Made by a program: the position numbers and the translations under genes. From Alkalimarinus coralli (GTDB taxonomy: Bacteria > Pseudomonadota > Gammaproteobacteria > Pseudomonadales > Oleiphilaceae), in NCBI RefSeq assembly GCF_023650515.1, contig NZ_CP096016.1:1946001-2010000 (forward strand): a DNA stretch of 64,000 bases, given 5' to 3'. Below, in pieces: positions 9,798 to 59,870 of this stretch. Below the pieces are notes generated by a model, which worked only from the letters and a program-made list of their open reading frames with translations, did not search any database and had not been told where the DNA came from. Position 1 is the first letter of the stretch. Each line of letters begins with the position of its first letter.

Positions 9798-9958
9798 GAG
9801 ACCTTTGCACGACGTGACGAGCGAAGCAAAGACAAGGCAAAAAATGAAGAAAAAGCGCAGCTTATGTGTAATAAGTCTCGGTCGACTCTGGAGAGCGCAC
9901 AATTTTGAGTCATTTTTTAACGCTGTATTTGTAAGCGCAGTAGTCGTGCTAAGGTCTC
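9798..9958 (+). mobile_element. MITE-like element, copy 1 (161 bp)
   Basis: A non-autonomous element starting GAGACCTTTGCACGAC and ending with its near-perfect inverse (GTCGTGCTAAGGTCTC), flanked by the 5-bp direct repeat TATGA (9793-9797 and 9959-9963). The empty site is preserved in the second copy of the tandem duplication, where TATGA occurs once at 12260-12264. The insertion lies 24 bases upstream of the A1 start codon, between any distal promoter and the gene. It codes for no transposase. It shares a longer middle section with the copy at 51792. Confidence 0.93.
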
Positions 9959-10076
9959 TATGACTTACTTAATGATCACCCTCTCTCTACCTCATTACTC
10001 CCCTATACAGTAATAAAGAGCGGGCAACCCCATAAGTTCTGACAACCAATAAAACCGGTTTCGATTTAACCTTACA

Positions 10077-10115
10077 ACCAAAAAAAAACCACCCGACAAG
10101 GGTGGTTTTTTCTTA
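10077..10115. terminator. Bidirectional rho-independent terminator after B1
   Basis: An 8-bp stem AACCACCC/GGGTGGTT (10087-10094 and 10100-10107) with a 5-base loop. It is flanked by an A run on the left (T tract for the minus strand) and a T run on the right. It ends transcription of paralogue B before the A1 leader and implies that A1 needs its own promoter. Confidence 0.9.
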
Positions 10116-10134
10116 TACCAAAGATGGCTCGATC

Positions 10135-11238
10135 TTAGTGACCGTAAACATCCATAGTCGCTGTAACTTCAAGATCAGTGATGTAAACACTACCGATTGA
10201 AGTTCCGCCGATGTAGATATCTTCCATATCCATATCTGCAGAGAAGTCTTTAACGTCTACGAATAGACCTTTAGAGCTAGCAGAAACAACCGCTGCTGCG
10301 TGTGCGTAACCAGCAGTTGCCAGCTTGTTAGCACCACGGCTGTTGTTCATAGCGAAACGACCGATTTCAACATCCATGAAGTCAAACTTCATCGCGTTAG
10401 CTGCTGCGTTTCCAGCTACACCACCAGCAACCTGGAAGTATGCGCTAACTGCAAGCTTTGAAGTATCTTCGTCGATGATGATATCAACAGGACCGATCTT
10501 ACCCGCTAGCTCGATACCAGAAACCAATACAGTGTTTGCTGCAGCGGCTGGCGCTAAAGGATCAACACTTGAACCAACAACGTAGTCACTCTTACGTAGA
10601 GCCACTTCACCCAACGTCATACCGAAGTCAACGCCGTCAAACTTCTCAGATCCTGCAACAGAATCGTCATAGCCGTTAGTTGTTCCCAAGTGGATAACCA
10701 GGTCACCATCAGCAATTGCGCCGTCTGCTGCACCAGTAGACGTCTCAAGAAGATCAGCAATTGAAGTTACGTCAGCAGCTCCACCATTGCTACGGTGAAG
10801 AGCATAAGCACCGATAGCTGCTTGCTGTGTAGCGTCAGTAGTTTGTGCTGCCAAGTCAGCAAGACCCGTCGCTGGAGAGTCAGCGATGTAGTCATTAACC
10901 TGTGCTTCTAGACCGAATTTGAAATCAGCGTTTGATTCACCAGCACCAGCAACATCGATGTAGATAGTGATGTTGTCTAATACAGTGTTTGCACCTACTG
11001 CTGCGCCTGCTGCAGTGATACCAGCACCACCTAATTTCATGTCAGTCATTGAGATGAAACCGCCATCTTTGTACGCGATCTCACCCACTTCTACGTTTGC
11101 AGTCAAATCGATAGTCAAACCTGCTTGACCAGTCATTTCACCCATAACGCTGTCGTCTAGCGACTTAAGTTCTGCTTGTGCTCCAGCTGAGATAGCTGCG
11201 ATAGCTGAAACTAATGCAATTTTTTTCAGGCCTTTCAT
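10135..11238 (-). CDS. Secreted paralogue B, copy 1 (DUF6160/FilA-like signature)
   Basis: A 367-residue exported protein identical to copy 2 (12435-13538). The signal peptide MKGLKKIALVSAIAAISAGAQA is followed by ELKSLDDSVMGEMTGQAG, the same mature N-terminal signature as paralogue A. The body is Ala/Gly/Asp-rich and beta-prone. The C-terminal block (IYIGGTSIGSVYITDLEV...DVYGH) is clearly related to that of A (NIGGASIGSVYVNDLKL...IYGH). A strong AAGGAG ribosome site lies 6 bases before the start, which suggests high expression. Function unknown; likely an abundant envelope or surface protein. The family name is recalled, not searched. Confidence 0.7.
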   Translation of the reverse strand: MKGLKKIALVSAIAAISAGAQAELKSLDDSVMGEMTGQAGLTIDLTANVEVGEIAYKDGGFISMTDMKLGGAGITAAGAAVGANTVLDNITIYIDVAGAGESNADFKFGLEAQVNDYIADSPATGLADLAAQTTDATQQAAIGAYALHRSNGGAADVTSIADLLETSTGAADGAIADGDLVIHLGTTNGYDDSVAGSEKFDGVDFGMTLGEVALRKSDYVVGSSVDPLAPAAAANTVLVSGIELAGKIGPVDIIIDEDTSKLAVSAYFQVAGGVAGNAAANAMKFDFMDVEIGRFAMNNSRGANKLATAGYAHAAAVVSASSKGLFVDVKDFSADMDMEDIYIGGTSIGSVYITDLEVTATMDVYGH

Positions 11239-11425
11239 TTTATTCTCCTTACAAGAATTTAGATTGTTTTTGTTATTTAATATAACACCGCCCGGCGTTT
11301 TTTTATTATGCCGTTTGGTTGATAGTCATTCTACGTAGCTTATTGTTAACTTCCGTGAAGATTGTCACAGTTTGTTACTTAATAAAAAGTCAATGTATGG
11401 CTATATCGACATGGTTCACAAAGAC

Positions 11426-12241
11426 TTAATGACCGTATATTTCTAATGTAGAACCGTTTAGCTTAAGGTCATTCACATACACAGAGCCTATCGATGCGCC
11501 GCCTATATTAATCGTCGGCAACACGATATCCGCCTCAAACTGAACTACGTCAAACTTAAGCCCTTTGCTGCCTTTATAAATATTTAGGTTAACCGGCATC
11601 ATTAAGTCTGAAACGCCGTAGCTATTAACCTCCATATTTTCGATATAACCCGTCCCTGCAATGACCGCATCTTCGATACCAATCCCCAGAAATTCGATCT
11701 CGGTATCCAGGTCATCAATACCAAACCCTGCCTGCAGGTTTATCACACTGGATGCTTCATCTATCCGAATCTTTAGCTCTGAAGCAACCCCCGTAAAACT
11801 TAGATTGGACAGCAATGTGGTATGACTTGTTCCGTTTGACTGCATCAATCGCCAAGCACCTGTAGATACGCCAAAGTCAACCAGGTTGCCGTATGCTGGC
11901 AGCGGCTTGGCCACAATCCACAAATCACCATCATTGGCAACATCAATATCCAGCTTAATGCCATCCAGCATATCGCCGGAGTGAGAACCGGGCCCCCAGT
12001 CAATACCGAAGTACTCCTGTTTGTTTGCTCCCCCTATCAGAATATCCTCAATGGCTATGCTGCCTCCATCGGTATAGCGGAACTCACCCATTTTTACCTT
12101 TGCACTTAAATCAATGGATATACCCGCCTGCCCTGTCACCTCACCCAGCAAACCATCATCAAGCGGTTTAATCTCCGCGTATGACACGACAGGCAAAATG
12201 GAAAGTGCAGAAACAAGCAGCTTCTTTTTTAAATCCATCAT
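11426..12241 (-). CDS. Secreted paralogue A, copy 2 (DUF6160/FilA-like signature)
   Basis: The same 271-residue protein as at 8959-9774. Its leader is uninterrupted: the ribosome site AGGAAAATT precedes the ATG and the region back to the B2 terminator is 193 bases. It is therefore the reference for judging what the element did to copy 1. Transcription order in the locus is B2, A2, B1, A1, each B being followed by a strong terminator. Confidence 0.7.
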   Translation of the reverse strand: MMDLKKKLLVSALSILPVVSYAEIKPLDDGLLGEVTGQAGISIDLSAKVKMGEFRYTDGGSIAIEDILIGGANKQEYFGIDWGPGSHSGDMLDGIKLDIDVANDGDLWIVAKPLPAYGNLVDFGVSTGAWRLMQSNGTSHTTLLSNLSFTGVASELKIRIDEASSVINLQAGFGIDDLDTEIEFLGIGIEDAVIAGTGYIENMEVNSYGVSDLMMPVNLNIYKGSKGLKFDVVQFEADIVLPTINIGGASIGSVYVNDLKLNGSTLEIYGH

Positions 12242-12376
12242 AATTTTCCTTTTTTTATTTATGACTTACTTGATGATCACTCCTCTCTAAATCATTACTC
12301 CCCTATACAGTAATAAAGAGCGGGCAACCCCATAAGTTCTGACAACCAATAAAACCGGTTTCGATTTAACCTTACA

Positions 12377-12415
12377 ACCAAAAAAAAACCACCCGACAAG
12401 GGTGGTTTTTTCTTA
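12377..12415. terminator. Bidirectional rho-independent terminator after B2
   Basis: An exact copy of the terminator at 10077-10115: an AACCACCC/GGGTGGTT stem with A and T runs on either side, located 20 bases past the B2 stop. Confidence 0.9.
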
Positions 12416-12434
12416 TACCAAAGATGGCTCGATC

Positions 12435-13538
12435 TTAGTGACCGTAAACATCCATAGTCGCTGTAACTTCAAGATCAGTGATGTAAACACTACCGATTGA
12501 AGTTCCGCCGATGTAGATATCTTCCATATCCATATCTGCAGAGAAGTCTTTAACGTCTACGAATAGACCTTTAGAGCTAGCAGAAACAACCGCTGCTGCG
12601 TGTGCGTAACCAGCAGTTGCCAGCTTGTTAGCACCACGGCTGTTGTTCATAGCGAAACGACCGATTTCAACATCCATGAAGTCAAACTTCATCGCGTTAG
12701 CTGCTGCGTTTCCAGCTACACCACCAGCAACCTGGAAGTATGCGCTAACTGCAAGCTTTGAAGTATCTTCGTCGATGATGATATCAACAGGACCGATCTT
12801 ACCCGCTAGCTCGATACCAGAAACCAATACAGTGTTTGCTGCAGCGGCTGGCGCTAAAGGATCAACACTTGAACCAACAACGTAGTCACTCTTACGTAGA
12901 GCCACTTCACCCAACGTCATACCGAAGTCAACGCCGTCAAACTTCTCAGATCCTGCAACAGAATCGTCATAGCCGTTAGTTGTTCCCAAGTGGATAACCA
13001 GGTCACCATCAGCAATTGCGCCGTCTGCTGCACCAGTAGACGTCTCAAGAAGATCAGCAATTGAAGTTACGTCAGCAGCTCCACCATTGCTACGGTGAAG
13101 AGCATAAGCACCGATAGCTGCTTGCTGTGTAGCGTCAGTAGTTTGTGCTGCCAAGTCAGCAAGACCCGTCGCTGGAGAGTCAGCGATGTAGTCATTAACC
13201 TGTGCTTCTAGACCGAATTTGAAATCAGCGTTTGATTCACCAGCACCAGCAACATCGATGTAGATAGTGATGTTGTCTAATACAGTGTTTGCACCTACTG
13301 CTGCGCCTGCTGCAGTGATACCAGCACCACCTAATTTCATGTCAGTCATTGAGATGAAACCGCCATCTTTGTACGCGATCTCACCCACTTCTACGTTTGC
13401 AGTCAAATCGATAGTCAAACCTGCTTGACCAGTCATTTCACCCATAACGCTGTCGTCTAGCGACTTAAGTTCTGCTTGTGCTCCAGCTGAGATAGCTGCG
13501 ATAGCTGAAACTAATGCAATTTTTTTCAGGCCTTTCAT
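12435..13538 (-). CDS. Secreted paralogue B, copy 2 (DUF6160/FilA-like signature)
   Basis: Identical 367-residue protein to 10135-11238, with the same signal peptide, LDDSVMGEMTGQAG motif and AAGGAG ribosome site. The ~140 bp upstream are shared with copy 1, so each B copy probably has the same promoter. An AT-rich TTATATTAAAT box about 40 bases before the start is a candidate -10 region. Unique DNA begins at about 13680, so this is the outer edge of the duplicated unit. Confidence 0.7.
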   Translation of the reverse strand: MKGLKKIALVSAIAAISAGAQAELKSLDDSVMGEMTGQAGLTIDLTANVEVGEIAYKDGGFISMTDMKLGGAGITAAGAAVGANTVLDNITIYIDVAGAGESNADFKFGLEAQVNDYIADSPATGLADLAAQTTDATQQAAIGAYALHRSNGGAADVTSIADLLETSTGAADGAIADGDLVIHLGTTNGYDDSVAGSEKFDGVDFGMTLGEVALRKSDYVVGSSVDPLAPAAAANTVLVSGIELAGKIGPVDIIIDEDTSKLAVSAYFQVAGGVAGNAAANAMKFDFMDVEIGRFAMNNSRGANKLATAGYAHAAAVVSASSKGLFVDVKDFSADMDMEDIYIGGTSIGSVYITDLEVTATMDVYGH

Positions 13539-13734
13539 TTTATTCTCCTTACAAGAATTTAGATTGTTTTTGTTATTTAATATAACACCGCCCGGCGTTT
13601 TTTTATTATGCCGTTTGGTTGATAGTCATTCTACGTAGCTTATTGTTAACTTCCGTGAAGATTGTCACAGTTTGTTACTCGCCAACAAAATAAAAGAATC
13701 AAAGATCTTATTCGTTCACACACTTGATAACACT

Positions 13735-14310
13735 TTACTGTTTCGAGCCCTTTGACTCAGCCTCTGACTTAACAAATATTTTTGGCGGAAACTCTTTTTC
13801 ACCGGAGTTGCCGTAAATAATTGCTCCATTGACCACCTCATACTCAATAGCCCTGGCCACAGCAACACCTGGTAAGTGCTCAAGCTCGACAACAATTTTG
13901 CTACTGGGAGAACCGTCTGGCTTAGTGTCTTCAAGGATATAATAAACAGCACTTGCAACAATCTGCTCTTTTACTGCATTAACATGGAGTGTTTTTCTAA
14001 TTGCGGGCAACGCCAAATTTGGTGGTGGCAGTTTTTCCGGTTCTACACCCACATCAGCCCATACATAGCGAACTTTACCTCCCCCAAACAAAGCCGCACC
14101 AAATGGGTAAAACTTACCATCTTTAGCGAGTTTCTCTTTAGCTTTAACCAAACTCTGCGCCATCAGGTAGTTCATATTATTAAAGGCTGTTTTTTTAACA
14201 TCTTCAGTAATACCGAGCTCTAACGCTTCTTCTGCATTCACCAAGAAGGTAAAGGAAGAAAAAACCATTACAATCATAAATTTAAAAAACTTGTTATTTT
14301 TAATACGCAC
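13735..14310 (-). CDS. Secreted protein, function unknown
   Basis: A protein of about 191 residues with an N-terminal signal peptide (RIKNNKFFK followed by the hydrophobic MIVMVFSSFTFLVNA). The frame is open to a TTG at 14325. The GTG at 14310 is preferred because AAGG lies 8 bases upstream and it gives a normal signal peptide. An ATG at 14277 is the shorter alternative but has no ribosome site. The mature part has an amphipathic helix (MNYLMAQSLVKAKEKLAKDG) and a beta-rich C-terminal half. No motif was recognised. It is upstream of, and in the same direction as, the duplicated paralogues, with 196 bases between. Confidence 0.6.
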   Translation of the reverse strand: MRIKNNKFFKFMIVMVFSSFTFLVNAEEALELGITEDVKKTAFNNMNYLMAQSLVKAKEKLAKDGKFYPFGAALFGGGKVRYVWADVGVEPEKLPPPNLALPAIRKTLHVNAVKEQIVASAVYYILEDTKPDGSPSSKIVVELEHLPGVAVARAIEYEVVNGAIIYGNSGEKEFPPKIFVKSEAESKGSKQ

Positions 14311-14561
14311 CAGCAACACCTTCAAACCATTGATTTAAGACAGTAAGGAATGTACGAAAAACGAAATATAGTTTCAACGTAAATAGTTAACAAAAATAGA
14401 TACAGCCCCCAAAAATAGATTAAATACTCTATTTAAATCCCTGATAACTACACCAACATGCACGCACAAGCCAACACTTACACCAACTTCAAACACTCAA
14501 ACCTATCACTGCAATTCGCTTTCCACTAAAATACGCCTTTTTCTATAGCGGCTCTTTAAGC

Positions 14562-15986
14562 ATGGTTTACAAAAGCACCATTATCCTTCATCAATATAAA
14601 CCGACAGACACAGCCCTTCGCATGCTTGAAGAGTTAGGAGGGATTGCATGTTTGTCAGGCAGATGGGGTCAGCCGGATATAAGTGACAACTTTGAAATTA
14701 TCACGGCGGCCCCTTCTATAAAGCTAAAAGAGGATCAACAATACCTTTATATAGAGGATAACAACGGGACAACAAAAACCACCAAAACCACCAAAACCAA
14801 TGGCATTGAATGGCTAAAGGATAGCCTAACGGCCACTTCGTCACAGTTAAGGGGCACCACATCAGAGTTCAATATTCCGACCGTTTTCGGCTTCATTGGT
14901 TACATGGGGTACAACTATAACGCTGACCAGAATAAAAAGCCGGACACGATGTCAAACACAACAACCCCTAATTTTTGTGGCGGTATATATCAGTGGAATC
15001 TAATTAACGACATAGAGAACCGTACAACTTATCTGGCATTTCACCATACCTGCCCCCCCCAATTACGAGAAAAGCTTACATCCATCTTTTATACGGGTTC
15101 AGACGACTCTCTTGCACCTTCTAGTGCGCCTGCTACCAAATTTAAGTTACTGTCCCGGTTTAAGCCCAGCAATAGTTTTAAAGAGTATCAGCAAGCGTTT
15201 GACCGCATCCGTCAATATATTGTTCAAGGCGATTGCTACCAGATAAACTATTCACACCGCCATGCGTCAAATTATCAAGGCAACCCGGCAGAGGCATATG
15301 CGGCCCTTAGTAAGTCCTTAAATACCCCCTATTCAGCCTATTTAGACTTTAATGACCATCAAGTTCTAAGCTTTTCACCCGAACGCTTCATTAAAGTAGA
15401 CGGGGACGAGGTAGAAACCAAACCCATAAAAGGGACTCGCCCCAGAGGAATATCTGTAGACGAAGACCAAAACCAAATAGATGATCTAAAAAGAAGCACG
15501 AAGGATCGAGCCGAAAACCTAATGATTGTCGACTTATTACGAAATGACTTAAACAAAACCTGCCTACCAAACAGCGTTAAGGTTCCAGAGCTGTTTAAAA
15601 TTGAGACCTACCCTAATGTCCATCACCTTGTTAGCACTATTACAGGCCGTAAGCCCTCAAACACGTCGCCCGTTGAAGTGTTAAAGCAAGCGTTCCCAGG
15701 CGGTTCGATAACGGGCGCCCCTAAAATAAGAGCAATGGAGATTATTGACGAACTCGAAACACACCGTCGCAGCATTTATTGCGGATCAATTTTTTACTTG
15801 GGGTTTGACGGAACCATGGATAGTAATATTTGCATACGCACATTGTTGTGCAAAGACAGCAACATCTATTGCTGGGGGGGAGGTGGAATTGTTGCTGACT
15901 CACATTGCGAAGATGAGTATCAGGAATCGATTACAAAGGTTAAAAACCTAATGGATGAACTTGAGAAAATGAGCGGATTACGCTGA
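14562..15986 (+). CDS. pabB: Aminodeoxychorismate synthase component I
   Basis: A 474-residue chorismate-utilising enzyme. It converts chorismate plus ammonia, supplied by the PabA subunit, to 4-amino-4-deoxychorismate for folate synthesis. Family blocks are IKGTRPRG (about 288), AENLMIVDLLRNDL (about 317), and PGGSITGAPKIRAMEII (about 385), with a catalytic-pocket CWGGGGIVADS near 445. The PIKGT version (rather than PIAGT) fits PabB with a covalent-Lys mechanism. A Thr-Lys repeat (TTKTTKTTKT, about residues 69-78) is a lineage-specific insertion. The neighbours thrH and cysH match the Pseudomonas order. Confidence 0.92.
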   Translation: MVYKSTIILHQYKPTDTALRMLEELGGIACLSGRWGQPDISDNFEIITAAPSIKLKEDQQYLYIEDNNGTTKTTKTTKTNGIEWLKDSLTATSSQLRGTTSEFNIPTVFGFIGYMGYNYNADQNKKPDTMSNTTTPNFCGGIYQWNLINDIENRTTYLAFHHTCPPQLREKLTSIFYTGSDDSLAPSSAPATKFKLLSRFKPSNSFKEYQQAFDRIRQYIVQGDCYQINYSHRHASNYQGNPAEAYAALSKSLNTPYSAYLDFNDHQVLSFSPERFIKVDGDEVETKPIKGTRPRGISVDEDQNQIDDLKRSTKDRAENLMIVDLLRNDLNKTCLPNSVKVPELFKIETYPNVHHLVSTITGRKPSNTSPVEVLKQAFPGGSITGAPKIRAMEIIDELETHRRSIYCGSIFYLGFDGTMDSNICIRTLLCKDSNIYCWGGGGIVADSHCEDEYQESITKVKNLMDELEKMSGLR

Positions 15987-16011
15987 TCAAAAACAACCCG
16001 TCAAGCATTAA

Positions 16012-16042
16012 CAAAGCAGGTTGGAAATTTAAACCTGCTTTG
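16012..16042. terminator. Convergent hairpin between pabB and thrH
   Basis: A 9-bp inverted repeat CAAAGCAGG/CCTGCTTTG with a 13-base loop. It lies between two convergent genes and lacks a long T tract. Confidence 0.5.
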
Positions 16043-16065
16043 CCATGCCACACTAAAACCAAGGC

Positions 16066-16677
16066 TTAGCTATGCACTTCACTTGCTTTTAGAAATTCTG
16101 CTTTTAAATCTTCATACTCGTGCACAGCAGGAAACTGCGGGAACTCGTCAATCACATTTTGTGGCGACTTAAACAAAATACCTGCCTCAGCCTGCTTGAG
16201 CATCGTTGTATCATTATATGAATCGCCCGCTGCTACCACTCTGTAGTTAAGAAGCTGGAATGCCCTTACCGATTGACGCTTCGGATCTTTCTGTCTTAAC
16301 AAGTAGTTAGTGATTTTTCCTTCTTCATTGACCTCTAATTTGTGGCAAAGCAGCGTTGGATGGCCAAGTTTAGCCATAAGAGGCATAGCAAACTCGTAAA
16401 ATGTGTCAGATAGAATAACAACTTGGTACTTGGTGCGGAGCCAATCTAAAAACTCTTTTGCCCCAGGTATTGGATCTAACTCACCAATAACCTCTTGAAT
16501 GGCTGGCAACCCATAACCGTGTTCATCGAGAATTCGAAGCCGCTGCTTCATCAATACGTCATAATCAGGGATATCTCGGGTCGTTGCCTTAAGCTCTTCA
16601 ATTCCTGTTTTTTCTGCAAAGGCGATCCAAATCTCAGGGATTAGCACCCCTTCTAAATCAAGGCAAGCGAGTTCCAC
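16066..16677 (-). CDS. thrH: Bifunctional phosphoserine phosphatase/homoserine phosphotransferase ThrH
   Basis: A 203-residue HAD-superfamily protein, the length of P. aeruginosa ThrH. HAD motif I is LDLEGVL (residues 6-12, with the DxE variant), motif II is ILSDTFYEF (about 89-97) and motif IV is AAGDSYNDTTML (about 149). ThrH moves the phosphate of phosphoserine to homoserine, joining serine and threonine synthesis. It is transcribed away from cysH, as in Pseudomonas (thrH next to pabB and cysH). Confidence 0.9.
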   Translation of the reverse strand: MELACLDLEGVLIPEIWIAFAEKTGIEELKATTRDIPDYDVLMKQRLRILDEHGYGLPAIQEVIGELDPIPGAKEFLDWLRTKYQVVILSDTFYEFAMPLMAKLGHPTLLCHKLEVNEEGKITNYLLRQKDPKRQSVRAFQLLNYRVVAAGDSYNDTTMLKQAEAGILFKSPQNVIDEFPQFPAVHEYEDLKAEFLKASEVHS

Positions 16678-16905
16678 ATTAGACTCCAGTTGTCACATAA
16701 TAGGTGTATTGGTTTGTATATGGCCGACAATAATATAGAAATTATAGTGAGTGGCAAGCCCCATTGCAGCAGATACACAAGAGTACATAGCATTAGGCTA
16801 TTAATTTATGCTTTTTTATTCTTTTTTTAACTAATTAGCTATCTGCTAAGCTGCTAATTATTCATAATAAACACATCTGTTTAATCGACGACACCGAGAG
16901 CAAAG

Positions 16906-17634: not shown

Positions 17635-17649
17635 CGGGTAAGTTCCCTA

Positions 17650-17677
17650 CTATAGGGTGCGCTTGCGCACCCTATAG
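17650..17677. terminator. Convergent hairpin between cysH and cysB
   Basis: A perfect 13-bp inverted repeat (CTATAGGGTGCGC with GCGCACCCTATAG) and a tiny loop, lying between the two convergent stop codons. T tracts are absent. Confidence 0.6.
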
Positions 17678-17690
17678 ATGCTATTGCGGC

Positions 17691-18668
<978 letters not shown>

Positions 18669-18715
18669 TCACCCTCCCGGCGCAACTGAATCAATATGAC
18701 CCATCTAAACAAATT

Positions 18716-18742: not shown

Positions 18743-18819
18743 TTTCAGAATAGATCAAACCCTATAAATTGGCTAATTCTGTTCGTTTATTCCTTTATAA
18801 GGTAGTGTAGACCAATTTT

Positions 18820-22649: not shown

Positions 22650-22684
22650 GTAAAATTTTTGGTATTCAGCAATTTAGTTTACTA

Positions 22685-22824
22685 GAGACCTTTGCACGAC
22701 GTTATGAGCGATGCAAAGACAAGGCAAAAAATGACGAAAAGGCGGAGTTTATATGTAATAAATGAGCATTTTGAGTCATTTTTTAACGCCGTATTTGTGA
22801 GCGCAGTAGTCATGCAAAGGATTC
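22685..22824 (+). mobile_element. MITE-like element, copy 2 (140 bp)
   Basis: Starts GAGACCTTTGCACGAC and ends GTCATGCAAAGGATTC, a slightly decayed inverse. It is flanked by the 5-bp direct repeat TACTA (22680-22684, 22825-22829). The right-hand target copy contains the stop codon of the dinG gene (TAG on the minus strand), so the insertion abuts that gene's end without changing the protein. It belongs to the shorter subfamily with the copy at 39116. Confidence 0.92.
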
Positions 22825-22826
22825 TA

Positions 22827-24983
22827 CTAATACTTTCGTTTAAAGGGAGGCAGTGACTCCAATATCATCTTACCGTACCGACGACTCATCATTCGACTAT
22901 CAAACAGTGTAACTTGCCCATAGTCACTTTCAGTTCTCAGCAGCCGACCACATGCCTGTATCAGTTTAGTAGAGGCTTCAGGAACCGTTATCTCCATAAA
23001 CGGGTTCCCTCCTTTTGACTCGATCCACTCGCTCAGGCCGGCCTCAATGGGATCATTGGGCACTGCAAACGGTATCTTGGCTATAAGCACATTGGTTAAG
23101 TAATCTCCCGGTAAGTCAATCCCTTCCGCAAACGAGGCCAGGCCAAAAATAACGCTCTTCCCGCCCTCATCAACCTTTCTTTTATGTTCCTTGATTACTT
23201 CTTGCTTACTCATCTCATCCTGGCTGATTATTTGCTCTCTTAAGCTGCCGGGTAAGCCATCTAATACATCATTCATCTGCTTTCTTGAGCTAAAAAGGGC
23301 CAGCGTACCTTGATGGCCTTCGATAAACGAAGGAAACAGCTCGATAAGCTCCTCCGTATGATCCGCACTATTACCTGGATCAGATTTCATTGCCGGCAAG
23401 CAGAGCGTCGCGACATCACTATAATGAAAAGGACTTGCGACCGCCAGGTATGCACTTTCTTCAGGCAAGCCCGTTTTATTGGTCAATCGATGAAAGTTGC
23501 CTAATGAAGTTAACGTAGCAGAGGTCAGCAAGGCTCCGTAGCACTTCGACCATAAGCGGGAATACAAAAGATTGTCTGCCATTAGCGGGCTTCCAAACAA
23601 CTCTATATCTTCATGGTTGTCGAATATTTTTTTAACCGCCCAACGCGCAGATGGGGGTTGACCTTTTACATCGTCTACTGAAAAGAAACGCCACAAGTCC
23701 TGGTATGACTGTGCTCGTGAAAGTATTGATCCGATAACCGGAAACCAACGCTCGCTATCTTCTTTATCCAAACTTGCGTCAGATTTTTCATCCATAGAGC
23801 GAATGATATCGTTGTTAATTTCATCTACCAAACGGCATAAAGAGATAAATAGCTTTAATAACTCTGACGTAATTGCTTTCAACTCGTCTGGAACCAGACC
23901 TTCGCTAAAGCGGGATAAAACCTGGTTATCTCGCTGTTGAACAGGCTTTTGGCCAAACTTATCGTCATTTGCATCCCAATCAAGCGATAGCTCCATCTGC
24001 TGATATAGCTCTTCGATTTTGCTATGTATCGGCTGTGCCGTATTACTAATCTCTTCTACCGTTTTTTGAAGCCGAGATGAAGGCTTTATAAACGGTAACA
24101 GCTCTGAAAACACCTTGGTAATCTGCTTTAACCAGTTCTGAGTCCCTTTCAATGGAGAGTGCACTGCAAAGTGGCCTAGCGCTTTATCTGCCAAATGATG
24201 GGCTTCGTCGAAAACGTAAATAGTCTCCTCTGGAGCAGGCAATACAACACCGCCTCCCAGTGATAAGTCGGCGAGAATGAGATCATGATTTGCAACGACG
24301 ACATCAGCGTCTTCGAGCAATTTACGCGACTCATAATAACTACAACTGTGAAAGTAACTACACCTACGATTCGAGCATTGCTGGTTATCTGTGGTAATAA
24401 GGCTCCAGGCTTTATTCTCTATATTGTCAGGCCATTTATCTCTGTCACCATCCCACTGCTGATTTGCATAAGCTGCAAACATGGTCTGATAGAGAGGTTT
24501 ATTGTCTGGCGACCCAAGCCCATTCTCAATCATAAATAGTGGAAGACTATCTTGCGCTTCGCCATCATCAGCCAACTGAGTTTCAAGTTTACTTAAGCAA
24601 ATATATCTGCCCCGCCCTTTGGCCAGCGCAAACTTAAATTTTAATCCGCTGTTCTTAACAATATCCGGCAGATCTTTGGCCACGATTTGTTCTTGTAACG
24701 CCGTTGTCGCAGTAGAAATAATCAGCTTTTTCTTTTTATTTAACGCCAGAGGAATTGCCGAGATACAATAGCCCAGTGTTTTACCTGTCCCTGTGCCAGC
24801 CTCAACAACGCAAACTTTGTGTTTGGATTTTCTATTGCCATTTGAATCTGACTCTATCCCGCCCAGATAACGCGCGAATTCGGCTATCATCTGGCGCTGG
24901 CCATAGCGGGATTTATATTTTTTTTGTGCAAGAAACGCTGAGTATGCAGATTGAATTTCTGCTTTAACTTCATCAGTTAGCAT
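22827..24983 (-). CDS. dinG: ATP-dependent DNA helicase DinG
   Basis: A 718-residue XPD-like superfamily 2 helicase, close to the 716 residues of E. coli DinG. Walker A is EAGTGTGKTL (61-70). The iron-sulfur cluster Cys are seen in RGRYICL (about 137) and in CSNRRCSYFHSC (about 197-208), and the DEAH box is VFDEAHH (about 257). Motif VI is QACGRLLRTESDYG near 680. DinG unwinds forked DNA, R-loops and G-quadruplexes during repair. No LexA box was identified upstream. The stop codon lies inside the target duplication of a MITE-like element. Confidence 0.9.
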   Translation of the reverse strand: MLTDEVKAEIQSAYSAFLAQKKYKSRYGQRQMIAEFARYLGGIESDSNGNRKSKHKVCVVEAGTGTGKTLGYCISAIPLALNKKKKLIISTATTALQEQIVAKDLPDIVKNSGLKFKFALAKGRGRYICLSKLETQLADDGEAQDSLPLFMIENGLGSPDNKPLYQTMFAAYANQQWDGDRDKWPDNIENKAWSLITTDNQQCSNRRCSYFHSCSYYESRKLLEDADVVVANHDLILADLSLGGGVVLPAPEETIYVFDEAHHLADKALGHFAVHSPLKGTQNWLKQITKVFSELLPFIKPSSRLQKTVEEISNTAQPIHSKIEELYQQMELSLDWDANDDKFGQKPVQQRDNQVLSRFSEGLVPDELKAITSELLKLFISLCRLVDEINNDIIRSMDEKSDASLDKEDSERWFPVIGSILSRAQSYQDLWRFFSVDDVKGQPPSARWAVKKIFDNHEDIELFGSPLMADNLLYSRLWSKCYGALLTSATLTSLGNFHRLTNKTGLPEESAYLAVASPFHYSDVATLCLPAMKSDPGNSADHTEELIELFPSFIEGHQGTLALFSSRKQMNDVLDGLPGSLREQIISQDEMSKQEVIKEHKRKVDEGGKSVIFGLASFAEGIDLPGDYLTNVLIAKIPFAVPNDPIEAGLSEWIESKGGNPFMEITVPEASTKLIQACGRLLRTESDYGQVTLFDSRMMSRRYGKMILESLPPFKRKY

Positions 24984-39080: not shown

Positions 39081-39111
39081 TATGCTTCTGAAACCTTTTC
39101 ATAGAAGCATA
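39081..39111 (+). terminator. Hairpin downstream of the lipase gene
   Basis: A 9-bp inverted repeat TATGCTTCT/AGAAGCATA with a 13-base loop, 105 bases past the stop. The MITE-like element copy 3 has inserted at its right foot: its left target duplication AGATT begins at the last base of the stem. Confidence 0.5.
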
Positions 39112-39115
39112 GATT

Positions 39116-39255
39116 GAGACCTTTGCACGACGTTACGAGCGAAGCAAAGACAAGGCAAAAAATGAAGAAAAAGCGCAGTTTATGAGTAATAAATGAGCAT
39201 TTTGAGTCATTTTTTAACGCTGTATTTGTAAGCGCAGTAGTCGTGCAAAGGTCTC
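39116..39255 (+). mobile_element. MITE-like element, copy 3 (140 bp), best-preserved ends
   Basis: Starts GAGACCTTTGCACGAC and ends with its exact 16-bp inverse, flanked by the perfect 5-bp direct repeat AGATT (39111-39115, 39256-39260). Inside are two direct copies of AAGCGCAGT (39171-39179 and 39230-39238) and an inner inverted repeat AAAAAATGA/TCATTTTTT, so the single strand can fold. No coding capacity. It ends 99 bases upstream of the MaoC gene. Confidence 0.95.
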
Positions 39256-39354
39256 AGATTAAATATGTGAGACATTTCTCAAACCACCTGTATTGCTCCA
39301 CACGGTTTGCTTTTGGAAATGTTGTAATAATAGCGATAATAAGTTGGCGAGTTT

Positions 39355-51522: not shown

Positions 51523-51791
51523 TGAGCGCCTCTAATAAATTAGAACTATATTCTAGTTGCGAGTATATTATTTTAAATTCCGCATCACAAATATCATCCG
51601 TATTATTTTGATTAATAACTAAACAGGATTAGGGTTCAATCAATAACACGGATAATCAATTCGATTAACTTGTTGATATTCATACTGGCGAGAAGCCCTC
51701 CCTATATACCTAATCATGGTTTGAACTATTGTTATTTTTCGATTAACAATCTACGCTTTGACCAGACATAACCCTATATTGGCTTATCATT
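51523..51791. other. Intergenic region upstream of moxR
   Basis: About 270 A/T-rich bases between the MoxR start and MITE-like copy 4 (the full gap to cysK is 470 bases). It must hold the moxR promoter. No gene, terminator or repeat was seen. Confidence 0.5.
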
Positions 51792-51952
51792 GAGACCTTT
51801 GCGCGGCTACTGCGCTTACAAATACAGCGTTAAAAAATGACTCAAAATTGTGCGCTCTCCTGGATCGACCGGGACTTATTACTCATAAACTGCGCTTTTT
51901 CTTCATTTTTTGCCTTGTCTTTGCTTCGCTCGTAACGTCGTGCAAAGGTTTC
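51792..51952 (-). mobile_element. MITE-like element, copy 4 (161 bp, reverse orientation)
   Basis: Reads as the reverse complement of copy 1 with about the same 161-bp length and the same longer middle section. The end facing cysK has decayed to GGTTTC. It is flanked by the 6-bp direct repeat ATCATT (51786-51791, 51953-51958). It ends about 40 bases upstream of the cysK start, so it may form part of the cysK leader or promoter region. Confidence 0.9.
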
Positions 51953-51992
51953 ATCATTATATGTAGGCCTCAGACTTTGGAGATATAAGCTC

Positions 51993-52955: not shown

Positions 52956-53023
52956 CATTTCCATTGGTTAGCTTGTATTTGGTTAAGCTGTATTTGTTTA
53001 AGTCAAAGCTCTGAATGAGCATT

Positions 53024-53055
53024 ACACAGGGCTTTGATTTATAAGCCCTGTGTTT
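53024..53055 (+). terminator. Terminator-like hairpin downstream of cysK
   Basis: A perfect 10-bp stem ACACAGGGCT/AGCCCTGTGT, 10-base loop and a short T-rich tail, 69 bases after the cysK stop. Confidence 0.65.
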
Positions 53056-53112
53056 GAGTTGCAACGGCTTAAATACTCTACGTTTAAATCAAACCGACTA
53101 GAATACCCGTAT

Positions 53113-53880
53113 TTAAAGCTCGACCAACTCTCCGAGTTCGAACACGGCCAGCTCCCCTGGTTGCATTTTCACCCAAGACTCATTGGTCGTTAATGGCTCT
53201 GTCGCAATCACCGTTACAACGTCATCCTCTGAGGTTTCTTCAATAAAGTTAACTGAAATATCATCATCTTGCAGCGTAGCAACGCCAAATGGTGCCCTTC
53301 TTGTTATCCAGCTCAGCTTTGTGCTGCAGTAGACATATAGCCTCTTTCCATCAGATAACAGCATATTGAACACGCCTAAGCTCGCTAACTTATCTGCACA
53401 GGTTTTGATCAACGTTTGACGTTCGTTTTCCGATGGATTTTTTTGTTTCGCAACCTGCCCCATTAACCAGCAAAATGCAGCTTCACTATCTGTACGACCT
53501 ACCGCCGAAAACCGCTGCTCTTCTGTAACGAGAGATGAAGTATTTTCGAGCTGGCCATTATGCGCAAAGCACCAATATCGCCCTTCAAGCTCCCTGATAA
53601 AAGGGTGCGTGTTTTCGAGACTAACGTCGCCCACATTTGCTTGTCTAATATGGCTGATGACTACCGTGCTTTTAATCGGGAAGTCTTTGATGAATTTTGC
53701 AATCTCGCTGTCAAAGCCGGGTTGAGGGTCGCGAAACTCTCTTATGCCTTTCCCGTCATAAAAGGCTATTCCCCAACCATCTTTGTGCGGCCCTGTTCCC
53801 CCACCTCTTTTTATTAGCCCTGAAAATGAGAAGCAAATGTCAGTAGGCACGTTTGCACTCATCCCCAATAACTCACACAT
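53113..53880 (-). CDS. Class II glutamine amidotransferase, YafJ-like
   Basis: A 255-residue Ntn-type glutaminase. MCELLGMSANVP puts the nucleophilic Cys at position 2. The family motifs GGGTGPHKDGWGIAFYDGKG (about 27-46), ISHIRQANVGDVSLENTHPF (about 76-95) and FAHNGQL (about 103) are present. YafJ-type proteins are stand-alone amidotransferase domains of unsettled substrate. It is transcribed just downstream of, and in the same direction as, the VWA gene (53915-56401), with 34 bases between, so one operon is likely. Confidence 0.88.
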   Translation of the reverse strand: MCELLGMSANVPTDICFSFSGLIKRGGGTGPHKDGWGIAFYDGKGIREFRDPQPGFDSEIAKFIKDFPIKSTVVISHIRQANVGDVSLENTHPFIRELEGRYWCFAHNGQLENTSSLVTEEQRFSAVGRTDSEAAFCWLMGQVAKQKNPSENERQTLIKTCADKLASLGVFNMLLSDGKRLYVYCSTKLSWITRRAPFGVATLQDDDISVNFIEETSEDDVVTVIATEPLTTNESWVKMQPGELAVFELGELVEL

Positions 53881-53914
53881 GGTTCCGGCCCTCTGGACAC
53901 ATAAGCGCTAACAC

Positions 53915-56401
<2,487 letters not shown>

Positions 56402-56571
56402 GAGGAACCTGCTATAAACTATTAATAAGGTATTAGTGAATATTTATAGCAGATTTAACAATAACAACAACGTGATTTTACATAAAAAGCCTGAATAAAA
56501 TCTCATTAGTTGTTGTATTTTATGAAATTATAATGACGCTGAACTATCGTCATGCTCGCGAGTAAACACAA

Positions 56572-56814
56572 TTATTTTCCATGCCAGGCGAACCGAGGCA
56601 CCTCTTCGCCATTACTCACAACCATTTCTGTAAACATGCTGAAAGGACGAACCCAAAGCTTGCCCTCTCCATACAAAGGGCGATAAACAACTAATGCCTC
56701 TTCAGTTTCGCTATGGGTTGCGGTGCCATAAACCTGATATAAATTGCCTTTATAATGACGATAAGTACCAGGTGTAATTTCGCTAATATTGTCAGTAAGA
56801 TCTCTATTGTTCAT
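56572..56814 (-). CDS. DUF1653 domain protein
   Basis: An 80-residue protein with the DUF1653 pattern: PGTYRHYKGNLYQVYGTATHSETEE, LVVYRPLYGEGKLWVRPFSMF (motif cores GxYxHYKGxxY and YxPLYG...WVRP). These small proteins occur widely in bacteria; their function is unknown. It lies 14 bases downstream of the preceding membrane-protein gene on the minus strand and ends the rnd-led operon. Confidence 0.88.
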   Translation of the reverse strand: MNNRDLTDNISEITPGTYRHYKGNLYQVYGTATHSETEEALVVYRPLYGEGKLWVRPFSMFTEMVVSNGEEVPRFAWHGK

Positions 56815-56828
56815 CCGTAGAAGCTCTT

Positions 56829-57173
56829 TCAGGCATTGTGTAAATGGAGTAATTTTCTAACGACATATTCCAAAGTAAGGAGTGCTGTTAACAACGTAAG
56901 CGCCCCTAATAAGTGCATGCCCGCCTTAACAGCTAAGTGTGTATTCCCAATAACCCACTCGTAGCCTCCTACCAGATAGGCTGGCGCAAACCACTTGGCA
57001 TCCAAACCAATGTCTACCGGTGTCAGCAGCAGTACCACTACGACTAATCTTAGTATTTTTGTTAAGTCTTTATACGGGATAGACCGGGTCATTCTCCAGA
57101 AAACAATAATTAGCCCAATAGCTGAAAGCAGATAGCATCCCCATGCTATCAGGTAACTCTGACTAACAATCAC
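56829..57173 (-). CDS. Small integral membrane protein, unknown
   Basis: A 114-residue protein with about three hydrophobic segments (YLIAWGCYLLSAIGLIIVFW about 7-26, LRLVVVVLLLTPVDIGL about 42-58, and LLGALTLLTALLTLEYVV about 89-106). It starts with GTG inside the GTGA overlap with the ycgN stop, so the two are translationally coupled. No family name is certain. Confidence 0.7.
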   Translation of the reverse strand: MIVSQSYLIAWGCYLLSAIGLIIVFWRMTRSIPYKDLTKILRLVVVVLLLTPVDIGLDAKWFAPAYLVGGYEWVIGNTHLAVKAGMHLLGALTLLTALLTLEYVVRKLLHLHNA

Positions 57174-57625
57174 AGGTTAATAACTCCTTCGATAATATGA
57201 TCTTCCCATTCATCTTCAGGGACATCATTCTCACAAATAGCTCGATTTCTTACCGAGCTGCCAGATTGGTGCACCGAGTTTTTATCGCCCGTAATGAGCG
57301 GGTGCCACTCAGGCAGTGGTTTACCTTCGAGCAATAGCCTGTATGCGCAGCTTGAAGGCAGCCAGCTAAACTCTTCCAGCCTACTTAAACTTAACGATAT
57401 GCACGACGAAACTTTTTCAAGTCTGGATTCATAAACACCACAACTACAGGCATTGTGATCAAGATACTGACAGGCAATATCGGTGTAATACAAATCACCG
57501 GTATCCTCGTCCTCAAGTTTTTGTAAACAACATTTTCCGCAGCCGTCACATAACGACTCCCACTCCTCTCGATTCATCTCGGGAAGTGTTTTTACCAACC
57601 AATAGGGGGAAACCTGGGCTATCAT
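57170..57625 (-). CDS. ycgN: YcgN-type cysteine-cluster protein (UPF0260)
   Basis: A 151-residue protein. Conserved Cys motifs are CDGCGKCCLQK (about 27-37), IACQYLDHNACSCGVYESR (about 50-68) and a later CISLSLSRLEEFSWLPSSCAYR (short core LPSSCAYR near 90). These Cys sets are typical of the YkgJ/YcgN zinc- or iron-chelator-like group. Function is unsettled. Its position between ycgL and a small membrane protein is common in Pseudomonas relatives. Confidence 0.9.
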   Translation of the reverse strand: MIAQVSPYWLVKTLPEMNREEWESLCDGCGKCCLQKLEDEDTGDLYYTDIACQYLDHNACSCGVYESRLEKVSSCISLSLSRLEEFSWLPSSCAYRLLLEGKPLPEWHPLITGDKNSVHQSGSSVRNRAICENDVPEDEWEDHIIEGVINL

Positions 57626-57630
57626 CTATA

Positions 57631-57936
57631 TTAGTCTTCAACGTCTTTTAGCTTCTTGTTAAACTCAACAAACCCGGGCAAATAGTTCTCTTCTACCGGC
57701 GGCATTTGAAGCAAAAAACCTTTTTCTGCAATTTCAGCAAGCACTTTTTTTGCGTCTACCCGTGCAAGTTTCTTTTCTTCAGTCAGCAGCATATCAAACA
57801 CATGAATAGGCGTACCAAAAAAAGCCAGCAACGCTTCTGGTAATACATCCAGCCCTTTTTTCTTCTCGATATAGACGTACATTTCTGACTTTTTCGAGCT
57901 TTTATAAACAGAACACAGCAGTCGACTTTCAGACAT
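57631..57936 (-). CDS. ycgL: YcgL-domain protein
   Basis: A 101-residue protein (frame open to 58044). The start at 57936, MSESRLLCSVYKSSKK, is preferred because it matches the family length of about 95-108 residues, and it overlaps the rnd stop by 8 bases. The YVYIEKKKGLDVLPEALL and FLLQMPPVEENYL blocks are typical. Function is not known; YcgL often sits next to rnd, as here. Confidence 0.9.
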   Translation of the reverse strand: MSESRLLCSVYKSSKKSEMYVYIEKKKGLDVLPEALLAFFGTPIHVFDMLLTEEKKLARVDAKKVLAEIAEKGFLLQMPPVEENYLPGFVEFNKKLKDVED

Positions 57937-59083
57937 TAAACTTACTCTCGGCAATTTTTTTAAAAGTGTCACCCAGCAGTTTTGTTCTCCAGACACCAAA
58001 CTCTTTGGGTAACGCCACGTTTCCTCGCTTCTCGTTCTGCGCAAAGAGCAGATTAATATATTGTTCTAATAGCCTTTTTCTTCCCAGAAGCTCAGGCGCA
58101 ATGCCCCTCTCTAGCGCTATCGTCTCAGAGGCCTTTCTGATAGTTCGGTAATACTCCAGCTTTTGACCGCTTAATGAACGGGGTATTCGTTTAAAGTCAG
58201 CATTCACTTCATGCGCCGCATTGATAACAGAGAGCAGGTAATCACCATATTTACGCTGCTGTCCAGGATTCAAAATCCGACTGGCCTGAAGTGCATTAAT
58301 ACTCTTTGGCATGCGCTCTGCGATTTCAAGAAGCTGCTTGTCACTGATGACCCTGCCACGGGGTTTGTCCCTTGTGCGCGCTTCCCGTTCTCGCCAGGAT
58401 GACAGTTTTTTCAGTACTGCCTGATTACCAATGGGCAGTTTCCACCCACCTCTAAACTTTAAATAATAGCTGTCAATATCTGAAATTTGATTCTGCATCC
58501 CCTTGTTTATCAATTCGCACTCTTGCTCTACAACGCCCAGCATATCGCGTTCTTCAAGTTGCGAAACAACTTGGGGGTAAACATCATAAAGATAGTGAAC
58601 ATCTTTTGCTGCGTACTCTAGCTGGGAGTCATCAAGAGGCCGCTTAAGCCAGTCTGAGCGAGTTTCGCCCTTATCTATCACCAGCCCCAGATACAGCTCA
58701 ATAAACTTCTGATACCCTACGGAAACACCCTGCCCTAGAAGTGCACAAGCTATTTGAGTGTCAAAAATATTATGCGGGGTGCAATCTGAAATAGTCTGAA
58801 ATAACACCACATCCTCACTCATCGAGTGCATTATCTTGATGGTGTCACTTAATAGCAAAGGCTTGAGTAAGGTAAGATCTTCAATACAGAGCGGGTCGAT
58901 CAGGTAAACCCCGGTATCATCTGCCACTTGTATCAAACCAGCTTTAGGATAAAAGGTATCGACCCTTACAAATTCGGTATCGAGCGCTACATAAGGCAGT
59001 GTCTGCCAGTAATCTAACTTTTCTTGCAGGCGCTCAGGGTTTCTAATCATTTCAACACTGAATGCGCAGTTCACATTACTCAT
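57929..59083 (-). CDS. rnd: Ribonuclease D
   Basis: A 384-residue 3'-5' exonuclease for tRNA 3'-end maturation. The DEDDy exonuclease residues are seen in YVALDTEFVRVDTF (D36/E38 region), HSMSEDVVLF (about 87-96), and YAAKDVHYLYDVY (about 156-168, D160 region). An HRDC-like domain follows, covering about 215-290 with KPRGRVISDKQLLEIA. The start MSNVNC matches a normal N-terminus. It is the first gene of a compact rnd-ycgL-ycgN-membrane protein-DUF1653 run. Confidence 0.94.
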   Translation of the reverse strand: MSNVNCAFSVEMIRNPERLQEKLDYWQTLPYVALDTEFVRVDTFYPKAGLIQVADDTGVYLIDPLCIEDLTLLKPLLLSDTIKIMHSMSEDVVLFQTISDCTPHNIFDTQIACALLGQGVSVGYQKFIELYLGLVIDKGETRSDWLKRPLDDSQLEYAAKDVHYLYDVYPQVVSQLEERDMLGVVEQECELINKGMQNQISDIDSYYLKFRGGWKLPIGNQAVLKKLSSWREREARTRDKPRGRVISDKQLLEIAERMPKSINALQASRILNPGQQRKYGDYLLSVINAAHEVNADFKRIPRSLSGQKLEYYRTIRKASETIALERGIAPELLGRKRLLEQYINLLFAQNEKRGNVALPKEFGVWRTKLLGDTFKKIAESKFNV

Positions 59084-59105
59084 CTACCGGTCCTGTCCCG
59101 TTGTA

Positions 59106-59708
59106 TCAGCCATCAATCGGTTTTCGCCCCGTTAAAGCATGGCTCAAGGTACCGCCATCAACATACCCCAACTGCCCACCAACAGGAATGCCGTGAGCAA
59201 TACGAGTTACCAGAATATTCTGCCCTTCTAACAAGTCTGCGATATAAAATGCGGTCGCATCACCTTCAATGGTCGAGTTGGTTGCGAGGATCACTTCGCG
59301 AATGGACGCCTCCGAAACAAGCCGCATTAACTTATCAAGGCCTATTTCCTCTGGGCCAATCCCATCAATAGGCGATAGATGTCCCATCAGCACAAAGTAA
59401 CGGCCACTAAAGGTATTGGATAGTTCAATCGCTAATAAATCCGACGGCGTTTCAACAATACAAAGCTGGCCATTATTGCGCTTTTCGTCCGAGCATAGCC
59501 TACAGATATCAACCTCAGTCAGGTTTTGGCATTTCTCACAGCGCCCGACCCCCATAACAGACTCATTGATTGCATTCGCCAGCCTTAGTGCACCATCCCG
59601 GTCGCGCTCAAGTAGCTGCAAAGCCATACGTTGAGCAGATTTTTGGCCTACTCCCGGTAAACAGCGCAGAGATTCAATAAGTTCATCGACTAACGGGCTA
59701 AAGCTCAT
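59106..59708 (-). CDS. recR: Recombination mediator RecR
   Basis: A 200-residue RecFOR-pathway protein. The helix-hairpin-helix [16 protein letters not shown] (about 13-28), the zinc finger [16 protein letters not shown] (C57, C60, C69, C72) and the Toprim domain [14 protein letters not shown] (about 83-96) are all present, and the length equals that of E. coli RecR (201). It helps load RecA at gaps. It belongs to a dnaX-ybaB-recR transcription unit, but a MITE-like element lies in the ybaB-recR gap. Confidence 0.95.
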
Positions 59709-59793
59709 AAATAAAGCGTCATATAAGAGGAATGTAAAAAAAGTGCACTGATGCGGGCATTAAACCCTGCATCAGCTTGTTGTTTAATTGGTA

Positions 59794-59870
59794 GAGACCT
59801 TTGCACGACTACTGCGCTTTTTCGTCATTTTTTTGCCTTTGCTTCGCTCATAACGTCGTGTAAAGGTCTC
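59794..59870 (-). mobile_element. MITE-like element, copy 5 (77 bp, internally deleted, reverse orientation)
   Basis: Has both ends intact (GAGACCTTTGCACGAC and an inverse with one change) but lacks the middle. The join falls exactly at the AAGCGCAGT direct repeat seen twice in copy 3, which indicates loss of one repeat and the ~59 bases between; a further 5 bases are missing and one added. Flanks are TGGTA (59789-59793) and TGATA (59871-59875), a 5-bp duplication with one change. It lies 2-7 bases after the ybaB stop codon and inside the ybaB-recR transcript. Confidence 0.9.

Follow-up and report, generated by a model that had tools for sequence, protein, structure and literature searches.

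The interior of a MITE is generally regarded as a remnant free of constraint, and MITEs commonly occur without a detectable autonomous partner. Among the described systems closest to the family reported here is MITEPsy1 of Pseudomonas syringae pv. phaseolicola, a non-coding element of 100 nt with the ends GGAAGGTCTGAAAAAGCC and a 4-bp duplication (CTAG/YTAA), which has the IS5-type ISPsy2 as its probable partner, has been shown to transpose in vivo and has similar sequences noted in other genera (PMC3189936). Compared by description and ends alone, it resembles our family in being small, non-coding and bounded by inverted ends, but the ends themselves differ, and the part of the report available to us mentions no structured or portable core (PMC3189936). 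ERIC and Correia/NEMIS are small MITEs whose transcripts form hairpins, with RNase III or RNase E effects, and in the available portion of the source a covarying core common to elements with unrelated ends is not described (PMC10969869). The R178 repeat of P. fluorescens, as far as its available description goes, measures 101 bp, has copy numbers of 18, 28 and 9 across three strains and contains an internal 11-bp inverted repeat; likened by description alone, it is possibly the core described below without the ends (PMC2718517). Among open-licence papers no earlier description of this core was found.

The window analysed here is a stretch of 64,000 nucleotides from Alkalimarinus coralli. Transposon RNAs of the HEARO / IS605-orfB-I type, which are structured, carried by mobile elements and were catalogued before their role was known, adjoin a transposon gene, whereas the window family carries no gene and no Rfam model matched the element (0 matches in the window at the gathering score and, over 10 relatives at E values up to 5, four sub-threshold matches, none of them in the element). 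Its sequence presumably also differs from those of ERIC and Correia/NEMIS.

Copies in the window and in the genome

The sequence-only reading had reported five copies with 16-bp inverted ends and target duplications, in window order 161, 140, 140, 161 and 77 bp long, and all of them were recovered with these positions and lengths:

9793-9963, plus strand: copy 1, 161-bp type, with its duplications (TATGA at 9793-9797 and 9959-9963)
9798-9813 and 9943-9958: ends of copy 1
9814-9942: core of copy 1, with loop III altered
22680-22829, plus strand: copy 2, 140-bp type, with its duplications (TACTA at 22680-22684 and 22825-22829); core at 22701-22808
39111-39260, plus strand: copy 3, 140-bp type, with its AGATT duplication
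39132-39239, plus strand: core of copy 3, the 108-nt reference core
51786-51958, minus strand: copy 4, 161-bp type, with its ATCATT duplication; core at 51808-51936, minus strand
59789-59875, minus strand: copy 5, 77-bp deletion derivative lacking the apical part of the core, with an imperfect duplication (TGGTA/TGATA)

Compared with the 16-mer GAGACCTTTGCACGAC, the left ends of copies 1 to 5 have 0, 0, 0, 2 and 0 mismatches and the right ends 1, 3, 0, 1 and 1. The duplications of copies 1 to 4 are exact and that of copy 5 agrees at four of five positions. Copies 1-3 share one orientation, and copies 4 and 5 have the opposite one.

When the whole genome (G000; 4,826,299 bp, one contig) was searched with this 16-mer at up to two mismatches, a check that had been proposed together with the claim of a mobile MITE family of many copies, 93 forward and 95 reverse ends were found, an abundance that is not due to chance because the reversed control pattern gave only 1 and 0 in the same search. 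The claim is supported, and 72 distinct elements were located, these being the ones whose ends could be paired within the stretches examined. Thirty-six are 140 bp and 20 are 161 bp long, the rest lying between 37 and 162 bp; nine are shorter than 130 bp, including core-less forms of 37, 39, 47 and 50 bp (the last twice). An exact 5-bp duplication flanks 46 of the 72 elements, against 1.4 expected when right flanks are swapped among elements, while two have a 6-bp duplication, one a 4-bp duplication and 23 none. The five repeats are copies of a non-autonomous MITE family: its members are short (37-162 bp), non-coding and bounded by 16-bp terminal inverted repeats, the duplication has a constant length, and there is evidence of movement in an empty site.

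That site is the one occupied by copy 2, the one of the five window copies tested in this way: in congener G002 and in G004 the alignment runs straight through the junction and the element is absent, and G003 and G001 have no element there either, but their sequence has diverged. At up to one mismatch four congeners have 0-1 ends per strand, and copy 3 is identical to two other copies in its own genome, so the recent activity proposed from the sequence is borne out. Copy 2 is a recent insertion and the family has no fixed gene position. Of the opposing possibility, a structured RNA whose position relative to genes is conserved, the structure proved real, in the form of a covarying hairpin, and the fixed position did not. 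The 39-bp core-less form is present both in A. coralli and in G002 with different duplications, so either movement may not need the core or a deletion at the same GCAAAG microhomology may have arisen on two occasions.

The core hairpin

The interior of the element, overlooked in the sequence-only reading, is no mere filler; it is a hairpin that covaries and is conserved widely. The core is about 108 nt long (129 nt in the 161-bp type, in which one strand of loop III is replaced and which nonetheless reaches 20 copies) and folds as a single long hairpin with three conserved internal loops. Helix 1 is followed by the conserved loop AAGGC/AACG, helix 2, a tandem GA/GA loop, helix 3, a GSA/UGA loop with a bulged A, and an apical helix with a G.U base; conservation is among the highest at the GA/GA loop, the GSA/UGA loop and this bulged A. 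Over 68 rows, 96.3% of 1971 cells are paired and both sides have changed in 23 of the 29 pairs. The covariation score is 0.425 against 0.154 (sd 0.007) in shuffled alignments, with none of 500 shuffles as high, and falls to 0.036-0.075 when the structure is slid. The plus strand folds with a z-score of -7.96; the fold of the opposite strand is roughly as exceptional (z -8.90), but at -49.7 against -54.7 kcal/mol.

On the strand taken as plus in copies 1-3, G-U outnumbers A-C by 98 to 32 cells over 113 rows (68 of alignment A2 and 45 new ones of alignment A3), and by 84 to 29 when each combination of taxonomic family, pair and state is counted once; the apical G.U is found in 63 of the 68 rows of A2 and 51 of the 52 of A3, seven rows being common to both sets. 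In the own-genome control the G-U and A-C departures are 16 and 15 over 40 copies, a count of departures from the commonest state that follows a different rule from the lineage count and in which one pair, mostly G.U in this genome (28 of 40), therefore lies outside the 16. The contrast between lineages and own genome is modest (Fisher p 0.015 on cells and 0.12 on distinct states), and these p-values are optimistic because the rows are related.

Compensatory changes are also produced by template-switch correction, and it might be argued that these are ordinary palindromic MITEs whose self-complementarity is kept at the DNA level only, through such quasi-palindrome correction or cruciform extrusion, without any RNA role. 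The whole 140-bp copy is 73% self-complementary and both strands fold well, which speaks for this view; correction would, however, erase mismatches, yet conservation is among the highest at the two loops (GA/GA and GSA/UGA) and at the bulged A, and neither the 84:29 strand asymmetry nor the sharing of loop sequences with Bacteroidota contigs (see below) would be predicted. We consider this explanation unlikely.

Distribution of the core and search for a partner

A homologous interior was found in 95 of 390 genomes of the order, and covariance model R1 matched 151 of 369 genomes of the class (about four of ten sampled) and 101 of 398 of the phylum, two samples that overlap and both include the A. 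coralli genome. Contigs of gut Bacteroidota contain the apical hairpin too, with shared loop sequences. Elsewhere the same core is flanked by different terminal repeats with different duplications (3-4 bp in the examples, against 5 bp in A. coralli). Conservation of the core extends over the order, the class and the phylum, and Bacteroidota contigs contain relatives of it, while the ends and the duplication length vary by lineage.

Among 135 elements in relatives, 32 lack matching arms. Of the remaining 103, 71 have no duplication by the rule used, and 34 have YTAR on both sides, identically in 22 against 10.2 expected, figures that are indicative since the boundary rule favours both YTAR and duplications. 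They replace a first automatic count that gave no excess over the null because palindromic YTAR had been absorbed into the arms. The G186 type shows TCA/TGA and ends close to those of ISPsy19 (GAGGGTGTAGACAAAAT); G186 has five end pairs 140-172 bp apart and three lone ends. The 5-bp type of the window is not of the IS5-family YTAR/TNA target habit.

A transposase elsewhere in the genome had been proposed as the mover, and this claim was not confirmed: none of the 68 exact GAGACCTTTGCA places in A. coralli showed an insertion sequence bounded by such ends, flanks being inspected by eye and ends paired, with diverged ends partly covered (67 places in their surrounding DNA, one as a listed match only). 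Three further exact 12-mers comprise one 138-bp element and two lone ends. Candidates were sought among the 14 PF01609 matches, which are 12 copies of one element with 546-codon frames, IS1182-like by our judgement, and two fragments; none is enclosed by a matching end pair. Seven unpaired ends were checked by eye for long frames, and none of these was transposase-like. In genomes G553, G706, G452 and G282 the end search gave 24 places, 22 of them in G553 and mostly elements of 139-141 bp, with no insertion sequence seen. Neither was a partner for the window end type seen in six other genomes (19 places, 10 loci examined, the rest being second ends or elements already seen), nor one for the G186 type among its five end pairs. 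That no autonomous partner with the same ends was found lowers the claim of a partner, not the claim that the family works like a MITE.

Two of the PF01609 loci lie near ends: L064 adjoins the end of a neighbouring element, and L074 is accompanied by a lone end with four mismatches, in a region rejected on rereading.

Gene context and the role of the core

Of 62 copies in A. coralli, 58 lie between two called genes, one is inside a gene and three are undecided; scored against the flanking genes they are ++ in 22 cases, -- in 17, -+ in 16 and +- in 3, and 79 copies in relatives are ++ in 18, -- in 29, +- in 13 and -+ in 10, with 4 inside genes and 5 undecided. There is no clear orientation preference in either set. 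A cis-acting RNA kept by its hosts, as terminator, mRNA stabiliser or RNase processing site in the manner of ERIC or Correia elements, would account for a stable hairpin found in intergenic DNA; it is nevertheless improbable given this lack of preference, the few convergent sites in A. coralli (3/62), the G-U preference absent from resident copies, the empty orthologous site and copy 3, where a terminator-like site was looked for and none was found. Slightly less probable again is a single-stranded DNA hairpin, one strand of the core being recognised in transposition as in REP/IS200-type systems, for although a strand-asymmetric constraint would fit a single DNA strand too and G.T is the better-tolerated mispair in DNA, terminal inverted repeats with duplications of 5 bp here or 3-4 bp elsewhere are a sign of double-strand DDE transposition.

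The explanation that we regard as probable is a portable, structured and probably RNA-acting core that is spread as MITEs by several transposases. Because it recurs in many bacteria, including another phylum, with different mobile-element ends, the evidence suggests that evolution preserves the hairpin itself. The element would be moved in trans by transposases that cut at its terminal repeats; these would come from several insertion sequences, some of which at least have an IS5-type target habit, and the core would repeatedly have been joined to new ends. The strand of the core that acts as RNA would be the plus strand as defined by copies 1-3, because G-U far exceeds A-C there across lineages and one G.U position is near-universal. 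Selection would bear on those copies that later transpose, and so on the mobile lineage, rather than on resident copies, because among the latter the two kinds of departure are equal; copies within the A. coralli genome look neutral. As a guess made with low confidence, the hairpin might help to mobilise a source copy through binding to the transposase or to a host factor that is broadly conserved, a role that we would prefer, no more confidently, to regulation of neighbouring genes.

A more far-reaching reading, which we put forward tentatively as somewhat short of an even chance, is that of a new mobile RNA family, a single structured RNA that has repeatedly captured the ends of unrelated insertion sequences and lives as a parasite of their transposases, and without which source copies would not be mobilised or would not persist; such a family would be common to Gammaproteobacteria, Desulfobacterales and Desulfuromusa MAGs, and gut Bacteroidota. 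If a core survives the loss of its ends, shows covariation between families and reaches another phylum, this would point to selection on a mobile non-coding RNA-like module and supply a new Rfam-type family, and it raises the question of whether a gene-less element can exploit several transposases through its own structured RNA.

The core variant L182 had no match in an E. coli collection, nor was there a match in the phages searched. Among viral contigs, scanned for the ends only, the 16-mer was found in three stretches, two with lone ends and one with a pair about 100 bp apart.

The element family in the genome of Alkalimarinus coralli

The five copies in the window were found with the positions, ends, lengths and four exact target duplications described in the sequence-only reading, the fifth duplication, that of the 77-bp copy, matching at four of five positions and thus not being exact. 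The genome-wide search with the 16-mer end revealed many further copies: on the single 4,826,299-bp contig, of which the window spans 1,946,001–2,010,000, this end occurs 93 times in forward and 95 times in reverse orientation at ≤2 mismatches, compared to 1 and 0 for a reversed-pattern control. From the stretches examined, 72 distinct elements were paired (140 bp in 36 cases, 161 bp in 20, 37–162 bp in the others), and exact 5-bp duplications flank 46 of them, with 1.4 expected by flank-swapping; two have 6-bp duplications, one a 4-bp duplication and 23 none. Their left 12-nt flanks are 77% A+T.

Three copies of the 140-bp type are identical. When the flanks of copy 2 were joined, they gave a one-piece match in three congeners (G002, G003 and G004) and a match in two pieces in a fourth (G001); at the junction, G002 and G004 align straight through, constituting an empty site, and G003 and G001 have diverged sequence with no element present. 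Four congeners contain 0–1 ends per strand at ≤1 mismatch. G002 carries a core-less element of 39 bp flanked by an AAACT duplication (L109:1501-1539), which is almost identical to one in A. coralli (L048) that has a different duplication. This form, found in two congeners, may be either a mobile micro-element or the result of recurrent microhomology deletion; together with the 161-bp type, the 39-bp forms suggest that movement or spread does not require the whole core.

The proposal that a transposase elsewhere in the genome moves the family did not lead to a partner in A. coralli: no insertion sequence was found at the 68 exact GAGACCTTTGCA places (paired ends and long frames viewed by eye; surrounding DNA examined for 67, one known from its listing alone), and none of the 14 matches to PF01609 is enclosed by a matching end pair. 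An IS1182-like insertion sequence is present twelve times in this genome (L061–L072); its copies have 546-codon frames, equal PF01609 scores and unrelated ends. Exact 12-mer ends occur at 19 places in five of six other genomes, and each of the 10 loci examined among these holds an element, a single unpaired end or a loose pair due to chance, with no insertion sequence. In other genomes the end type of the window is also accompanied by 5-bp duplications, e.g., ATAAT (L128), GATAA (L422), ACAGG (L427), TATAA (L432) and TTCCT (L426).

A covarying core with interchangeable ends

BLAST with the 140-bp copy matched 95 of 390 genomes of the order (E ≤ 0.001), often only in the interior (approximately positions 15–126), and 29 loci together with 40 further stretches contain one core flanked by differing ends. 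Alignment A2 and the covariance model R1 were built on 68 sequences, excluding the near-copies L132, L151 and L184. The structure has 29 pairs, with 96.3% of 1971 cells paired, and both-sided changes affect 23 pairs and 289 cells (78.7 in shuffles). Covariation is 0.425 versus 0.154 in shuffles, none of 500 being as high, a control in which relatedness among rows remains in the score; sliding the partners lowers it to 0.036–0.075, a control favouring the structure, which was derived from the same alignment. A compensatory subfamily was also seen in A. coralli, where an apical-helix T-A pair is A-T in 9 of 40 copies (columns 49/64 of alignment A4).

The terminal ends of core-bearing elements are interchangeable.

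End types of core-bearing elements and associated duplications
CAGGCTGTTGAAAAAC: CTAG or TTAA
GGAGCCTCTGATTAAC: TTAA
GCTTTGTCTGAAAAG: CTAG
GAGGGTGTTTACAAA: TCA/TGA
GAGACCTTTGCAC: 5-bp duplication

The GAGGGTGT type resembles the ISPsy19 end GAGGGTGTAGACAAAAT given in PMC3189936. Non-identical elements with sufficient flanking sequence number 135; under the rule applied, the arms match in 103 and fail to match in 32. Of the 103, 71 lack duplications, 27 have 4-bp and five have 5–7-bp duplications. YTAR flanks both sides in 34 of the 103 and is identical in 22 (10.2 expected), under a choice of boundaries that favours both YTAR and duplications. Counted without this choice, duplications are not in excess, because the palindromic target is absorbed into the arms.

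RNA or DNA, and possible function

We consider it likely that these are non-autonomous MITEs with a portable structured, probably RNA-acting core, moved in trans by several transposases; our confidence is slightly reduced by the good folding of the opposite strand and by differing rules in the wobble control. On the core strand, 98 G-U and 32 A-C cells were counted (113 rows from A2 and a further core alignment, A3, to which L241 contributes three matches; apical G.U position excluded), or 84 and 29 when each taxonomic family counts once per pair and state (p 2e-7, the events not being fully independent). At the apical position, G.U is seen in 63 of the 68 A2 rows and in 51 of the 52 A3 rows (seven rows common to both), although these two bases may not truly pair. 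Among 40 copies in A. coralli, 35 of which are distinct, deviations from the most frequent state number 16 G-U, 15 A-C and 17 other standard pairs, plus 30 mismatches, under rules different from those of the 113-row count and with one mostly-G.U pair not counted; the contrast between lineages and this genome gives a p value of 0.015 when cells are compared and 0.12 when distinct states are.

Correction of palindromes at the DNA level is the main alternative. Such correction predicts neither the G-U/A-C strand asymmetry nor the conserved mismatched loops. Folding energies alone cannot pick the strand, since unusually good folding is found for the opposite strand too. Insertions possibly adding hairpins were seen by eye at core loops in several lineages. 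Size variants in relatives (L401, L404 in G186, L324, L325, L328, L332 and L263) have extra sequence at or near conserved internal loops, paralleling the 161-bp type of the window.

A cis-regulatory role in the host is opposed by the lack of a clear strand preference relative to flanking genes (crude frames ≥120 codons) and by resident A. coralli copies that look neutral, and selection on source copies is favoured for the same reasons. That the portable core helps in mobilisation is a guess, with an even chance at best.

Distribution and known relatives

Matches to R1 at E ≤ 1e-4 occur in 151 of the 369 class genomes and 101 of the 398 phylum genomes searched, samples that overlap and both include A. 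coralli; copy numbers are lower bounds, at most 9–10 candidates having been scored per genome. A pattern scan for the apical hairpin in named genomes matched at least 118 stretches. Among the 80 matches listed are Pseudomonas, Stutzerimonas, Halomonas/Vreelandella, Marinobacter, Nitrosomonadales, Gallionella, Chromatiales, Thiotrichales, Methylococcaceae, Desulfobacterales and Desulfuromusa, and 16 contigs labelled as gut Bacteroidota (Alistipes, Rikenellaceae, Bacteroidaceae), mostly ruminant by title. Apical hairpin identity in these matches reflects how they were selected, since the pattern fixed it. Beyond the region that the pattern fixed, both AGGC and AACG are retained at the loop closest to the ends in 11 of these 16 contigs; L282 keeps AGGC with CAACA instead, L273 and L303 depart from the motifs on the 3' side, L317 is truncated and L320 has neither motif. 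The two of these contigs that were folded each close a long outer stem whose sequence is their own.

No match was found in a phage collection (two queries) or an E. coli collection (one query); seven and nine plasmid records, and four viral contigs, gave matches. A partial, diverged core is present in L194, a plasmid of the insect symbiont Candidatus Fukatsuia symbiotica (Enterobacterales). Tandem cores replace the usual single element in L241:1501-1850 (three) and in L312, a Thalassolituus MAG (several, with a repeated spacer).

The element has no match in Rfam, and the literature searched contains no account of a covarying core common to MITEs with different ends. From this literature, MITEPsy1 and R178 are possible relatives. 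Elsewhere in the window, an 810-codon frame (6221–8653) resembles in part, with a score below the curated cut-off, the SBBP-repeat beta-propeller model.
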